Shown in pieces: positions 1,870 to 7,708 of a stretch of 38,097 bases of DNA (position 1 is its first letter; every line of letters begins with the position of its first letter). The notes beneath the pieces were generated by a model. The model had not been told where the DNA came from and searched no databases. It worked only from the letters and a program-made list of their open reading frames with translations. Position numbers and translations under genes: made by a program. This stretch comes from an uncultured bacterium (lineage in GTDB: Bacteria; Cyanobacteriota; Vampirovibrionia; Gastranaerophilales; Gastranaerophilaceae): the NCBI GenBank assembly GCA_902795965.1, contig CADBNI010000060.1, positions 1 to 38,097 of the forward strand, written 5' to 3'.

Positions 1870-3345
1870 CTATCTTTGCGGAGCAATTATGTAATAATAA
1901 ATTGTGTATTCGCGTTCCTGACCGAGAGCGTTGCTAAGCGTGAATTTATACTCTATCGGTTTTATTGATTTTGTATCCGTCAAATAAGGTACGGTTTTTA
2001 TCGCTTGTTTTTTAACATTCTCGGGAGTTCTGTCAACAATCATGACACCCGACTTTTTCATATGTTCGTAATCCGTCCAAGGATCGGGATAGCCATACGT
2101 ATCAAGAAGTGCCTTCGGGTGCGTATCACCATAAATTGCAAGCGGGAGCGTCCATTCAATATACCCGCCCATATATTCAAGCGGAGTGTCGTATTTTTCA
2201 GCCCAAAAACTTTTCAAATCACCGAACACAGTACTCACGGGATATCTGCTTCTGTAATTTTTTTCGACTGCAAGCAATGTCCCAAGAACCAAAAAGATTA
2301 TCAGCATTACGGTATAAGCACATTTTAGCGTAAATTTAAACGCTTTTTCATCAATTTTACAAGGGAAAAAGTAAAACAGCATTATACCCGTCATAAACCA
2401 GAATTCATATCCCCAACGCGGGCGCATTGTTCCGCCCTCAAAAAATCCCATGCAAAGATGTATAAAAAATGAAGCCAAACCCAAAAGCAGTAAAAACCAT
2501 ACGGCTTTTTTGTCAAGATTTTGCGCTAATTTTAACGGTGATTTTTGCCTTATTTTTAATGCTCCGAATATTACAAGTATTCCCGCAATTACACTCAACT
2601 GCATAAGCGCAAATTTCAAAGGTGCCGTTATGTGATTTAACCAACCGTTACTTGTAAGTTCGCCTTCAAAATACAAAAACGGGAAAAAGTCGTATTTTAT
2701 AAGCCAAAGAATATGAGGCAAAAATATTAAAAACGCAATTATTACAGACAAATAGAAAAATTTGTTCTTGAATACTTCGCGCTTAAACACACATGCCCAA
2801 ATAAACATTGGAATAATCAACATTGCGGTCTGATATTTGTTTAAAAAGCTAAAACCGACAATTATGCCTAATTTTACCCAATCAATATTTTTATTACCCG
2901 TCATGCAATGATAAAAATAAAATGCGATTGCAGGCAGGGTAAAAAGTATTATTACATCAGGGTTAAAGCCGTAATAACAGGTTATATAACTGTAACACCA
3001 ACAACCTTCAAGAATTATTACGGAAAGCATAGCTTTGCTTTCGTCCAAAAAGCATTTAGCAAGCCTGTATATGTATATAAATCCCAATGTGACAAATAAC
3101 TGGCTGACAAAATATATTACAAAATCGGATTTAAAAGGCAAATAGCTGAAATACGCCAACCAACCGAAAAGCGGAGGGTGCTTCGGAGTACCGAAATCAG
3201 TGAACGAACCCCAATAAATTCCCTCTAACGCATCTGTCGGCAAAACCGTTCTGATTAAACCCACACATGACCATACAATCAAATGTACAAGCAAAAATGT
3301 GTAAAAAGCCTTTTTCTCACTTCCGATATTTTTCAAAAATTCCAT
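1870..3345 (-). CDS. ArnT/PMT-like (GT39-type) membrane glycosyltransferase
   Basis: A polytopic inner-membrane protein of 491 residues with about ten hydrophobic segments through residue 360, then a soluble C-terminal part. The first loop carries TDALEGIYWGSF with D38 and E41, followed by KHPPLFGW (55-58 for KHPP). This is the acidic-pair/HPP pattern of lipid-phosphate-sugar-dependent transferases such as ArnT and PMT. It probably moves a sugar from a polyprenyl phosphate donor to a lipid or protein on the outer face of the membrane; the acceptor is unknown. The reading frame is open upstream to 3393, but ATG 3345 has a good GGAG Shine-Dalgarno six bases upstream and begins just before the first membrane span. 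The gene is divergent from the DUF3137-type gene. Confidence 0.85.
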   Translation of the reverse strand: MEFLKNIGSEKKAFYTFLLVHLIVWSCVGLIRTVLPTDALEGIYWGSFTDFGTPKHPPLFGWLAYFSYLPFKSDFVIYFVSQLFVTLGFIYIYRLAKCFLDESKAMLSVIILEGCWCYSYITCYYGFNPDVIILFTLPAIAFYFYHCMTGNKNIDWVKLGIIVGFSFLNKYQTAMLIIPMFIWACVFKREVFKNKFFYLSVIIAFLIFLPHILWLIKYDFFPFLYFEGELTSNGWLNHITAPLKFALMQLSVIAGILVIFGALKIRQKSPLKLAQNLDKKAVWFLLLLGLASFFIHLCMGFFEGGTMRPRWGYEFWFMTGIMLFYFFPCKIDEKAFKFTLKCAYTVMLIIFLVLGTLLAVEKNYRSRYPVSTVFGDLKSFWAEKYDTPLEYMGGYIEWTLPLAIYGDTHPKALLDTYGYPDPWTDYEHMKKSGVMIVDRTPENVKKQAIKTVPYLTDTKSIKPIEYKFTLSNALGQEREYTIYYYIIAPQR

Positions 3346-3408
3346 AATAATCTCCAACGATATAATTCTAATTTGAACCCGACATTTGTTCAATAAAATA
3401 TTTCCTTA

Positions 3409-3423: not shown

Positions 3424-4317
3424 GTGGAAGATAAAAAAGAAGTTTATTATAAATATTTTGAAGAAAAGATTTTGCCGTTAATTTATCCGCTTGAAAAAGA
3501 AAGGATAAAAACCGTTTGGAAAGTTGTAATTTCTTCAATAATAATGTTTTTGGCGGGGGTTTTCTTTGCTTTTCTTTTTGTATATCTTGCACTGACAAAT
3601 AAAATCAGTCTCTTGTGGCTTCCCGTACTGCTTTTTTTAATGTATTTATTCTTTATAAAAAGTATTATAAATGTAATTTGGGCGGGGAAAAATTATCAAA
3701 AACTTTTGCTTGAAAAGGTTTTGCCTTATTTTTTTGAACCGTACGCAAAATTCAGATTTTGGCCAAAAAATCACGATACGGGTGCGGTTTTGGATTCAAA
3801 ACTGTTCGGCAATTTTGACAGTCAGGAAGATACCGCTTGTATCTTCGGGATTTATAACAATGTTAATGTGATTGTGGCAAATACGGAATTGACAATCCCC
3901 GTTAATAAAAAAGTTTTTAAGGGTACCACAATTCAGTTGGAACTGCCGAGTTCAACAGACAACCACGTTATTATGATTTCCAAAAACGAACGCAAAAATA
4001 ATACATACAAACAGGTAAATCCGCATATCAAAGATTTGAATAAATATCTGTACACTTTTGCCAAAAATCCTGACGGGATTGATTTTATTGATGAAGATTT
4101 TTGGAAAGTTTTGAAACGTTTCGGAGAAGTTTATACCGCGAAAGGATTTGCATTTTCGTACAAAAACCGCACGGTTTTGATTGCAATCAGGCAAAAAAGA
4201 CCATGGCAATTCGGCTTTCTTTTCAAATCACTTTTAAAACCCGAAAACTATGATGATTTAATCGAAAGATTTGTTGTGATCTTTGATTTTGTCGATTTGC
4301 TAAACCGCTCTGTTTAA
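3424..4317 (+). CDS. DUF3137-type membrane protein
   Basis: 297 residues. The N terminus YYKYFEEKILPLIYPLEKER precedes two membrane spans (about 33-56 and 60-82), then a roughly 210-residue soluble domain with mixed beta content. This layout and the opening motif match the DUF3137 family of unknown function (recognised by eye). The start is GTG at 3424. An ATG two bases upstream is in another frame. The gene converges on the large GT5-like gene and the two coding regions overlap by 18 bp at their 3' ends, so read-through of either would make antisense RNA. No function can be assigned. Confidence 0.8.
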   Translation: MEDKKEVYYKYFEEKILPLIYPLEKERIKTVWKVVISSIIMFLAGVFFAFLFVYLALTNKISLLWLPVLLFLMYLFFIKSIINVIWAGKNYQKLLLEKVLPYFFEPYAKFRFWPKNHDTGAVLDSKLFGNFDSQEDTACIFGIYNNVNVIVANTELTIPVNKKVFKGTTIQLELPSSTDNHVIMISKNERKNNTYKQVNPHIKDLNKYLYTFAKNPDGIDFIDEDFWKVLKRFGEVYTAKGFAFSYKNRTVLIAIRQKRPWQFGFLFKSLLKPENYDDLIERFVVIFDFVDLLNRSV

Positions 4318-7300
4318 GAGATTTGTTGTAGATTTGAACTGAGGAGTTTGGGCAACGCTATTCGTCTGTTGTACGGGAACCGCTTCCTGTTTCGGTTGTT
4401 CCGTAACATTGATTTCTTGTGAAGAATTACCCTTTGTTCTGTTTTTATAGAAATAAGCCGTTGTTCCGATTGCGGCTATTCCTGCCCCCGCACCCGCAAG
4501 AATTTTTGTCCATTTGTTGGATTTAGCCAAACTTTCTGCCGATTGTTTGTAGTTTTGTACAGATTGCGAAAGATTTTCAACATTAGTTGTAAGTTTGCCT
4601 ATATTTTCCGCCTGTTGTTTTGCGGTTTCCGTATTTTTTTCAATTATATCAGACATTTTAACAAGCACTGCCTGCAACAACGAAATTGTTCTGGTATTAT
4701 TTTTCAATGAAGCGGTTTCTTTGTGCGTTGATTTAATAAGGGAATTGATTGACTTGACAAGAGTTTCCAACGAACTTGAGCTTTGTCTTACATCACCCGC
4801 AAGTACGTCAAGCGAAGATGTATTTTTACCGACTGTATTTGAATTTTCACTTATAGAAGCAGTATTTTTTTCAAGAACTTCCGTCAATTTTTTCAAAATC
4901 GCAGCAAGTTCTGCCGACATTTTTTCCGTTGGTCTTTCCTGCCCTTGAATTATCGGTTTTAATGCACTTTCGACTTTTTCGCCAAATTCGCCGACAAGTC
5001 GTTTCAAAGGATTGGTATTTCTGCCCTCAATCCCTTCTTGTACCTTAAAAGCATCTTCCATATACAACTGAAGCGTAGAACGACCTTCGTTCAAAATATT
5101 GTTGTTATGCCAATCAAATTCCGAACGCGCGGCATTCAAAACCAATTTTTTATAAGTTTCGGGTTCGTTGTGATATGTCAGAGCCATATCCTTGAAAAGT
5201 TGAGCTATTTCGTCAGAAGAAGCCTCCAGACGGTATTTACCGATTTCTTCACCCTTAATTTTTATACCTTTTTGTTTTTCAAGGTCAGTAAGATTTTGCA
5301 TATAAGCATGCTCGGTTTTAAACCCGTTTGCCTTTTCGGGATTTTCTTTTGACGTAATAATCATTTCGCCCGCACCACCCGAATTTAAAGACCCCGAAGG
5401 AGTACCCGACTGAATGCTTTCGGGAACGGTCAACCCTTGCGGTTCCCCCGTTGAGGAAAACATGGTATAAGTCATACAGGATACAAGGCGATTGGAAATT
5501 CCACCGTTTGAATACATTACATTTTGAGCGAACTTTCCGTCATTCATTGTTTGTATTCTGTATATTGTATCTTTTATTGCGTGAAAATCTCCGACACCTT
5601 TATCGTCCATGGGCCATGGATCTGAACCGCTTCCGATTATTAATTTTGAATGAAGTCTTATGTCAAGCGGAACACTTTCATCACCGAGATATTTTTCAAA
5701 TCCGCGCAAAAGTATCGGATAACCTTTTTGCGGGTCTGAGCGTCCCCAGCTTCCCCACAAAATATCTTTTACGTTAAATTCAGACAAACCGCCCAATACA
5801 TATTTGTTCTTTTTAATTTGATCCTGCGCAAAGAATAGCCTGTTTAACGCATCATCAACACTTGCGTTTGTATAATTTTGAAGTTTGTCGGCGCGTTTTT
5901 TTGTTGCTTTTCCGATTGCGTTTAAAAATCCTTCCGTATTAGCTCTTTTTGCCTCAACAATTTGTTCTGCCGAATCAGTTTTCGGGTTGTACGGGTGATA
6001 CCAGCTCAAATCCTTTGAAAGTTCGTTGTTACCCATATTTCCGTTCGGATTGTCCAACTTCATAAAATCTATATTGCAACCGTTCGGACGTCCCGGGATT
6101 TTATCTCCGCTATCGTTTGCTCTGCGGAAGAAACTTGTCAAACCTCTTGCGATATCATCATAAATTATAACTTCGTTTGCAAAAGTATGAGATACGTGGT
6201 TCGGAAAAACATTTTGAGGGTTGTTTTTACGTGCTATTAACGGAGTTATTGAATGGTTATAATTTCCGTTATCATCAACGTAATATTGCAGAAAAGGTCT
6301 TATAATCCTGTCAACAAGTTCATTTTCTTCACTTGACAGATTATATTTGTGCGAATCAATTTCAATAAGTTTTGAAAATTCGGGCAGTTGAGTAAGTTTG
6401 CCCCAATCCTCTGCGGTTGCTTTGTATCTCAAAAATTCAAGCGGGTTGTGCGTTGCACCCTGATAATTTTCCATAGGGTTGTGGAAAATATCCACAATAT
6501 TAAACCCGCGGAAAAATTCATCACTCTGCGAACGGTTAATTATGGATTCCGTTGTCGAAAATCCTGTTCTGCAATGCGCAATCAAATTTGCAGGCTTTAA
6601 ACCGTGAAATTCTTCCGTATTCAATTTTGGCAACATATCAACGGACGCATCACAAAAATCTCTTGTATAGAGGTTTAAATACGGGTGATCTTTCAGTTCG
6701 GGACTGTACGTATACGCTTTTTCAAATTTGGCAAAATCGTTTGTATGAACGCAAATTATTTTATCTTCATTATAAACCGTTCTGCCGTCCGCACCTTTTG
6801 AAGGCAAAAGCATTTTGAAAGCTCTGTAAGGAATTGAGCGCAAACTGCCCAAAGAATTTTCGTCAATTCTTTGTATGCTCCCTTTGACACTCGTAGGAAC
6901 AAGTATTCTGTACTGAGAAGATTTTAGAGGTTTTAATTGCCCCGTTACGGGATCTGTCACCATTTTTGCATCTTTTACAGTTTCGGGAACATCTTGCACA
7001 ACAAATCTGAGCCTCTCAACGGGTGTTTTTAAATTTTGAGCAATTTCTTCAAGCGGTTTATCCGCAGGATATGACAAAAAGAGGTTTTCGGGCATTCTGT
7101 CGGGCAAATTGTTCAAATCATATTCTTTTGGAATTACAAGAACTTTTACCCCGCCCGTCGGGTTGTTATAAGAATAATACGGAACGACATGAGGCATGCG
7201 CATGCCTGCTTTTTCGAGTGCATCCGGTAATTGTGCGGCAACCGCGCCTTGTCCTCCGCATTTGTACATAGGCAGACCTATTGCATTGTCCTCAACAGAA

Positions 7301-7473
7301 ACCGAAATCCCGTCCTTTACGCTATGCATGGCATCATTGCCTTTAAACGCAATCAGAGTAACAGGATTGTTTTTTAATGTTTCAAAACTTTTGTCACCCG
7401 TTCTTTCGACGGAATTTTGACCGATTTTAGCCTTTTGTGCCGTTATTGCAGGCATAACAGAATAAATACGCAT
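4300..7473 (-). CDS. Glycogen-synthase-like (GT5) protein fused to coiled coil and membrane anchor
   Basis: 1057 residues, roughly twice the usual GlgA. Residues about 53-710 follow the order of GT5 starch/glycogen synthase motifs in diverged form: KCGGQGAVAAQLPDALEKAG (71-90, for KTGGLGDV), AHCRTG (299-304), HNPMENYQG (331-339), PNHVSHTFANEV (424-435, for the VSPTYA segment), GRPNGCNID (461-469, for NGID), WGRSDPQKG (576-584, with R578 and K583), GSGSDP (614-619) and STGEPQGLTVPE (674-685, with E677). Residues about 850-985 are Asn/Ser/Lys-rich heptad-like coiled coil. Residues 991-1008 are a Gly/Ala-rich hydrophobic segment that could be a membrane anchor, followed by a polar Gln-rich tail. 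There is no signal peptide. The N-terminal 50 residues are low complexity with an AFKGN motif. ATG 7473 has an AAGGGG Shine-Dalgarno. The fold is inferred from motif order. Whether it is active is unknown. Confidence 0.75.
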   Translation of the reverse strand: MRIYSVMPAITAQKAKIGQNSVERTGDKSFETLKNNPVTLIAFKGNDAMHSVKDGISVSVEDNAIGLPMYKCGGQGAVAAQLPDALEKAGMRMPHVVPYYSYNNPTGGVKVLVIPKEYDLNNLPDRMPENLFLSYPADKPLEEIAQNLKTPVERLRFVVQDVPETVKDAKMVTDPVTGQLKPLKSSQYRILVPTSVKGSIQRIDENSLGSLRSIPYRAFKMLLPSKGADGRTVYNEDKIICVHTNDFAKFEKAYTYSPELKDHPYLNLYTRDFCDASVDMLPKLNTEEFHGLKPANLIAHCRTGFSTTESIINRSQSDEFFRGFNIVDIFHNPMENYQGATHNPLEFLRYKATAEDWGKLTQLPEFSKLIEIDSHKYNLSSEENELVDRIIRPFLQYYVDDNGNYNHSITPLIARKNNPQNVFPNHVSHTFANEVIIYDDIARGLTSFFRRANDSGDKIPGRPNGCNIDFMKLDNPNGNMGNNELSKDLSWYHPYNPKTDSAEQIVEAKRANTEGFLNAIGKATKKRADKLQNYTNASVDDALNRLFFAQDQIKKNKYVLGGLSEFNVKDILWGSWGRSDPQKGYPILLRGFEKYLGDESVPLDIRLHSKLIIGSGSDPWPMDDKGVGDFHAIKDTIYRIQTMNDGKFAQNVMYSNGGISNRLVSCMTYTMFSSTGEPQGLTVPESIQSGTPSGSLNSGGAGEMIITSKENPEKANGFKTEHAYMQNLTDLEKQKGIKIKGEEIGKYRLEASSDEIAQLFKDMALTYHNEPETYKKLVLNAARSEFDWHNNNILNEGRSTLQLYMEDAFKVQEGIEGRNTNPLKRLVGEFGEKVESALKPIIQGQERPTEKMSAELAAILKKLTEVLEKNTASISENSNTVGKNTSSLDVLAGDVRQSSSSLETLVKSINSLIKSTHKETASLKNNTRTISLLQAVLVKMSDIIEKNTETAKQQAENIGKLTTNVENLSQSVQNYKQSAESLAKSNKWTKILAGAGAGIAAIGTTAYFYKNRTKGNSSQEINVTEQPKQEAVPVQQTNSVAQTPQFKSTTNLLNRAV

Positions 7474-7640
7474 ATTACCCCTTTAGCAGAAAACCACCTT
7501 TCCCGCCATTATTTTAAAATATCGACATAAAATTTTTCAATAGTCATTTTGGTATTTATTAAGAAATATTAAGTAAATTTTTTTCAATAAATATAAAATT
7601 TTTCAAATATTTGAAGTAAAATCAGATTATCGTATCAGTT

Positions 7641-7708
7641 GTCATTCTGAGGCTTATAAATTGAGATCCTTCGCTTTGCTCAGGATGACATAAGCCGAAG
7701 AATCTCAT
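7641..7708. repeat. Dispersed repeat with two interlocked inverted repeats, copy 1
   Basis: Order of arms: GTCATTCTGAG (7641-7651), GAGATCCTTCG (7663-7673), CTCAGGATGAC (7679-7689), CGAAGAATCTCAT (7696-7708). Arm 1 pairs with arm 3 and arm 2 with arm 4, so the pairs cross. The same element lies inverted at 37684-37754. The remaining intergenic DNA from 7474 to 7729 is very AT-rich with no other feature seen. Confidence 0.85.

Follow-up and report, generated by a model that had tools for sequence, protein, structure and literature searches.

The 38,097-nt window analysed here, from the forward strand of contig CADBNI010000060.1 (assembly GCA_902795965.1), comes from a 1.81-Mb, 97% complete genome of Candidatus Gastranaerophilales, an order of gut relatives of cyanobacteria. 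It contains a gene for a 1057-residue protein related to the glycogen and starch synthases of glycosyltransferase family 5 (GT5). Judging from sequence comparisons, and with a probability of roughly 0.55, we consider this protein to be a glucosyltransferase tethered to the inner membrane, one of a set of giant anchored GT5 proteins that is specific to Gastranaerophilales and accompanies the canonical GlgA. GT5 enzymes are classically soluble enzymes of storage polymers, and the presence of a giant membrane-anchored GT5 in most genomes of the order, with strongly divergent versions alternating at one chromosomal site, points to a new membrane job for the enzyme family. No description of giant Gastranaerophilales GT5 proteins was found in the literature searched, and no relative of the window protein in the viral sequence collection that was searched. 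The genome was sampled as 80 stretches, and 1.15 of the 1.81 Mb were read directly, including the window.

The open reading frame occupies exactly positions 4300–7473 of the minus strand, on which all features of the protein given below are located. It begins with an ATG, 4 nt downstream of a ribosome-binding-site-like AAAGGGG (7478–7484) that was rated good. Family comparison placed the protein in type C, one of the types found at this locus of giant GT5 genes along with D, S, M and N1–N3; these type calls rest on score thresholds.

A diverged GT5 catalytic region

The catalytic region covers residues 54–818 (5020–7314), supported by profile matches and a fold search, and carries long insertions compared to GlgA. 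The initial annotation had derived a GT5 ancestry from KCGGQG (residues 71–76), AHCRTG (299–304), HNPMENYQG (331–339), NGCNID (464–469), R578/K583 and GEPQGL (676–681). All of these motifs were present, in the order of GlgA and beyond chance, and the ancestry was borne out by the profile searches. The window protein matched the NCBIfam glgA model (TIGR02095) with E = 7e-6 and 24.9 bits, which is below the curated equivalog cut-off of 328 bits. The proposed hidden Markov model search with Pfam Glyco_transf_5 (PF08323) gave a divided answer, as the window protein scored 20.5 bits, just under the curated cut-off of 22.7 bits, but 15 of 33 family members matched at E ≤ 0.01 (best 1.4e-9). The glgA model was matched by 22 of the 33, reaching 3e-11, and Pfam Glycos_transf_1 by 25. 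When a profile of the 33-member family was aligned to a profile of 22 GlgA proteins, a single collinear match was obtained (E = 2.8e-6), with family columns 54–783 aligned to GlgA 2–494 and every motif in register.

The GT5 motifs were also found to be largely conserved among relatives, a check that had been suggested at the outset. Residues invariant in the 33 relatives were G73-G74, H300, R302, H331-N332, Y337-Q338-G339, N464-G465, G577-R578, D580, Q582-K583, E677, G680 and E685. In the alignment, K71-C-G-G (7252–7263) was equivalent to KTGGL (GlgA Lys15 and Gly18), H300-C301-R302 (6568–6576) to HDW, HNPMENYQG (6457–6483) to IHNLAYQG (GlgA His161 and Tyr165), N464-G465 (6079–6084) to GlgA Asn246-Gly, and G577-R-S-D-P-Q-K-G584 (5722–5745) to the stretch from R300 to K305. 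The stretch E677-PQGLTVP-E685 (5419–5445) held the equivalents of both GlgA Glu377 and Thr382. E685 completes an EX7E motif, with a glutamate at both ends, that is invariant in the family; such a glutamate pair is usual in GT3 and GT4 enzymes. GlgA His161, Asn246, Arg300, Lys305 and Glu377 thus correspond to H331, N464, R578, K583 and E677, all invariant in the aligned homologues, so that the claimed retention of the Arg/Lys pair and the glutamate extended to all 33 relatives. Published work on the enzymes of E. coli (PMC7137382, PMC6210743) and of Arabidopsis provided the roles of the ADP-glucose-binding residues, the two papers being taken together. By these comparisons, the window protein is homologous to GT5 across the entire catalytic region, strongly diverged, with the predicted donor-phosphate and catalytic residues retained.

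Structure prediction had been proposed as a further check. The best structural neighbours of an AlphaFold2 model of residues 50–830 were glycogen phosphorylases and starch/glycogen synthases, all with a GT-B fold, but the model itself was of moderate quality, with a predicted local distance difference test score (pLDDT) of 60. The C-terminal half of the model aligned over 176 residues (3.2 Å, Z 13.1) to a G protein-coupled receptor chimera, whose fusion partner we take to be the P. abyssi glycogen synthase. A full-length AlphaFold model built with seven sequences had a pLDDT of 48 and was set aside as too poor. A GT-B fold is predicted with moderate confidence.

The ratio of nonsynonymous to synonymous substitution rates (dN/dS) in the glycosyltransferase region was 0.04–0.08 between close pairs, indicating strong purifying selection within one type, and was 0.084 for the window gene compared to its closest relative with an unsaturated dS. 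The low ratios showed that the gene is not decaying, and a pseudogene was rejected.

A predicted membrane anchor at one or the other end of the protein

A hydrophobic helix with basic flanks on both sides was predicted by hydropathy at residues 991–1009 (4447–4503), followed by a polar tail (4303–4437), which in most relatives has [DN]K[VAIL]A or a close variant as its last residues. The helix and its flanks were found in all 36 scanned homologues of types C, D and S. Its Kyte–Doolittle score was 1.33 in the window protein and ranged from 1.33 to 2.29 across the 36, most of which had no similar span elsewhere, as judged by hydropathy only. The Gly/Ala-rich helix and polar tail that had been noted originally were thus confirmed, and the window protein has the features of a tail anchor, namely one predicted C-terminal membrane helix; no signal peptide was recognisable in it by eye. 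Tail anchoring held for the window type but is not the sole solution, since N-terminally anchored GT5 proteins are found at the same locus elsewhere. In types N1–N3 the membrane helix is located near the N-terminus, and these proteins retain the principal catalytic residues, with the Asp-Trp pair of HDW among them. As judged from the predicted helices, the tether is a conserved element of giant GT5 proteins, at whichever end.

The segment preceding the helix (residues 847–986; 4516–4935) is a heptad coiled coil with Asn core layers as in trimeric autotransporter stalks. The hydrophobic period was exactly 3.50, and none of 5000 shuffles was equally strong, so the coil of about 140 residues described in the initial annotation is real. 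Matches of the window protein to ATG17 (autophagy), synaptobrevin, Rad50 and similar proteins reflected coiled-coil composition only and were discarded. The linker preceding the membrane helix varied between 26 and 169 residues among homologues, with 26–140 given for the relatives, and was short in most of these. Because its length is variable and the long coil is not shared, oligomerisation via the coil, as had been suggested, may apply to the window protein but cannot be a family-wide feature.

A single chromosomal slot for different GT5 types

The GT5 gene is flanked by a convergent gene for a DUF3137-like membrane protein (3424–4317, plus strand), which overlaps its end by 18 nt, and by a divergent concentrative nucleoside transporter gene (PF07662/PF01773; 7730–9010, plus strand) that served as a locus marker. 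With these neighbours, a glycogen-operon context was rejected. Both flanking genes were found beside the GT5 gene in most examined genomes of the window's genus, and outside this genus the GT5 gene adjoined the transporter in most genomes that have it. Within one genus the order was Pth, helix-turn-helix (HTH), DUF3137, GT5 slot, transporter and a 107-residue gene wherever the contig reached. The transporters of that genus were 84–98% identical, whereas slot proteins of different types were only 30–43% identical. The slot held type C in G000, G001 and G038, type D in G066, G043 and G031, type S in G018 and, on the opposite strand, an N-terminally anchored GT5 in G243. Two genomes of this genus (G001 and G043) shared 93% identity in the transporter and 38% in the GT5 protein, while two genomes of different genera (G001 and G050) shared 86% and 64%, respectively. 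More generally, proteins of the same C or S type were more similar across genera than different types were inside one genus. By these identities, the slot protein tracks type and not species.

Another protein of 911–1161 residues was encoded directly upstream of the same transporter in 13 of 16 genomes without a C, D or S protein. All nine slot substitutes that were scanned exceeded the cut-off of GT5 or group-1 transferase models (E down to 1e-21 for PF08323 and to 9e-41 for glgA), and N-type locus proteins scored 43–78 bits with PF08323, above its cut-off, and up to 140 bits with the glgA model. In a tree, types C, D, S and M were grouped and the N types stood apart, with GlgA beside them; the branches were long and the deep order is uncertain.

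Among 146 genomes of the order, the C-type profiles found 51, the N-type profiles 58 and the M-type profiles 22. At least one giant GT5 was present in 128 genomes, and exactly one type in 125. N and C types co-occurred in one genome compared to 20.3 expected (Fisher 9e-14, uncorrected for relatedness), and in three genera that contain both types none of 35 genomes carried both. This mutual exclusion is strong evidence, drawn from gene content, that N- and C-anchored giant GT5 proteins substitute functionally for each other.

That types replace each other between genera suggests diversifying selection on the product or its partner, in other words a selection for variety of the kind seen with surface glycans. 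Tentatively, the locus may represent a one-slot system of exchangeable GT5 types, in which giants anchored at either end are swapped between species, probably to vary a glycan linked to the membrane or the surface, with phages, hosts or neighbours as the selecting agents. Alternatively, the types could be an old tandem family that was sorted by differential loss and not exchanged between lineages. The sole genome with both an N and a C type (G112) has the two genes on one contig at a distance of approximately 10 kb, which favours such a history. However, that they are found together in one genome only, that the flanking genes stay ordered and highly identical while the middle gene switches type, and that types are closer across genera than within a genus all argue against it, and we regard differential loss as the less likely possibility.

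Two further observations were made at the window's locus. A gene for a PMT_2-type (dolichyl-phosphate-mannose-like) glycosyltransferase (1870–3393, minus strand) lies between the HTH and DUF3137 genes and was absent from the compared loci. The intergenic sequence upstream of the GT5 gene contains TCATCCTGAGCAAAGCGAAGGATCT (7664–7688), a dispersed repeat with several other sites in the genome that was not found in the relatives' loci compared.

A putative membrane enzyme apart from storage glycogen

A canonical GlgA (504 bits, C20) and GlgC (489 bits) were located elsewhere in the window's genome, and one canonical GlgA was present in each of 21 Gastranaerophilales-family genomes checked. This supported the earlier proposal that the giant protein has a role separate from housekeeping glycogen metabolism. 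The host-glycan-related factor that had also been suggested gained no support from the results and was not contradicted by them. As a membrane-tethered glucosyltransferase, it would have its catalytic domain at the inner membrane on the side of the cytoplasm, because no signal peptide was recognised and the donor would be a nucleotide sugar, either ADP-glucose or another nucleoside diphosphate glucose. A diderm, lipopolysaccharide-bearing envelope has been predicted for the group (PMC4040986). The enzyme may build or prime an alpha-glucan or a glucosyl-conjugate at the membrane, in which case the tether would decide the site of glycan production. The product or its partner would then be under diversifying selection, as with surface glycans, and would not be plain storage glycogen.

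One of the two main alternatives, next to a scaffold role, is that the protein is a tether for granule initiation. It would then do in one chain what SS4 and MFP1 do in plants, fixing the nucleation of ordinary glycogen granules at the membrane while the soluble GlgA carries out the bulk of elongation. The sites at which plant SS4 initiates granules are set by MFP1, a coiled-coil protein anchored to thylakoids (PMC10801857), and glycogen storage has been predicted for Gastranaerophilales (PMC5877343). The window protein combines a GT5 region, a coiled coil and a membrane anchor in one chain, and its genome encodes GlgA and GlgC, with a GH13 branching enzyme not found in it. In contrast, the extreme divergence and replacement of types at the locus are unexpected for storage housekeeping, and the coil-bearing linker is short in most relatives. 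We therefore find this explanation unlikely.

Several results weigh against an active glucosyltransferase or its proposed setting, in addition to the moderate quality of the structural model. GlgA Asp137, the acceptor contact in HDW, is replaced by Cys301 in 12 of 12 C-clade rows and is Asp in the other clades; this could mean a reduced activity or a scaffold role. The key Lys (GlgA Lys15) had been described as kept, which was true of K71 in almost every C-clade member, but D- and S-clade proteins have another residue at this position. Type M, which is C-terminally anchored, has Ala at the Glu377 equivalent (SRFAPCE), so not every type need be active. No glycan-export or priming gene consistently adjoined the GT5 locus. 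The three substitutions would fit a pseudoenzyme or scaffold, for types C and M if not for all, in which a former GT5 binds a glucan or nucleotide sugar without transferring glucose. On the other hand, the equivalents of His161, Arg300, Lys305 and Glu377 are invariant in types C, D and S and also found in N types, the N types retain the Asp-Trp pair, and the low dN/dS speaks against loss of function, which makes a pseudoenzyme the less likely reading. One group of type M proteins, from genus g2 (L230:3720–7070, minus strand; L232; L233), carries SRFAPCELTDLE at the same locus where GlgA has SRFEPCGLTQLY, and is a candidate natural pseudoenzyme.

The homology to GlgA would also be explained by a divergent but otherwise ordinary GlgA paralogue whose hydrophobic tail is incidental. 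This is very improbable given that every one of the 36 C, D and S proteins has the anchor, that it is C-terminal in type M and N-terminal in type N, and that a canonical GlgA is present separately and in single copy in the sampled genomes.

Annotations of 'glycogen synthase' in these genomes may not denote storage enzymes. The giant proteins also raise the questions of whether bacteria can make glucan as a function localised to the membrane and of which selective force replaces one type by another at one locus, a pattern of variation typical of surface or conflict genes.

An N-terminal signature shared with other proteins

Ahead of the catalytic region, the motif IAFKGN (7336–7353) follows a variable polar leader, and its Phe43 and Gly45 were invariant in aligned relatives. 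A signature of M[KR][IV].., a polar leader and [IV][ST]F[KTRQ]G recurred on unrelated, mostly uncharacterised proteins of the lineage, with sites at L122:11393–12892(-), L198–L216, L114:142–633(-), L079:2095–3012(+), L117:1814–3034(+) and L092:6325–8217(-). The tight F-x-G motif was approximately two-fold enriched in the first 50 residues (1061 open reading frames), and it or a near form was conserved across one unrelated family of orphan membrane proteins. An F-x-G-like leader was also observed on a 5'-nucleotidase-like protein without an obvious signal peptide (L062:350–1900, plus strand), encoded about 5.9 kb from the canonical glgA; 5'-nucleotidases are usually exported. The motif was not conserved among relatives of this protein, and a general export signal was therefore treated as a lead only. 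The signature could be a sorting or binding motif.

Comparison with known systems

The window protein resembles bacterial GlgA (GT5, TIGR02095) in domain order, in the retained donor-binding residues, and in the GG loop and the HN..YQG, NG, R..QKG, EP.G.T and SW motifs, all in register. It differs in sharing only about 17% identity, in its length of 1057 residues compared to 479, in the long insertions and membrane helix, in HCR for HDW and the extra invariant Glu685, and in having a canonical copy elsewhere in the genome. The EX7E pair (E677 and E685) recalls eukaryotic GT3 glycogen synthase and GT4 enzymes, as do sucrose-phosphate synthase and Gsy2 among the weak profile matches, but the motifs near the N-terminus and the DW/SW region near the C-terminus resemble those of GT5. 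With plant SS4 and MFP1 it shares a GT5 enzyme, a coiled coil and a membrane tether, which in plants decides where a glucan starts (PMC10801857). These are two proteins in plants, whereas the window protein has the anchor on the GT5 chain and a variable coil; the likeness is one of architecture, without demonstrated homology of coil or anchor. Finally, the fungal alpha-1,3-glucan synthase Ags1/AgsB also has a glycogen-synthase-like cytoplasmic domain covalently within a membrane protein (PMC5753165), but contains an extracellular transglycosylase and multi-span domains where the window protein has a single helix at one end.

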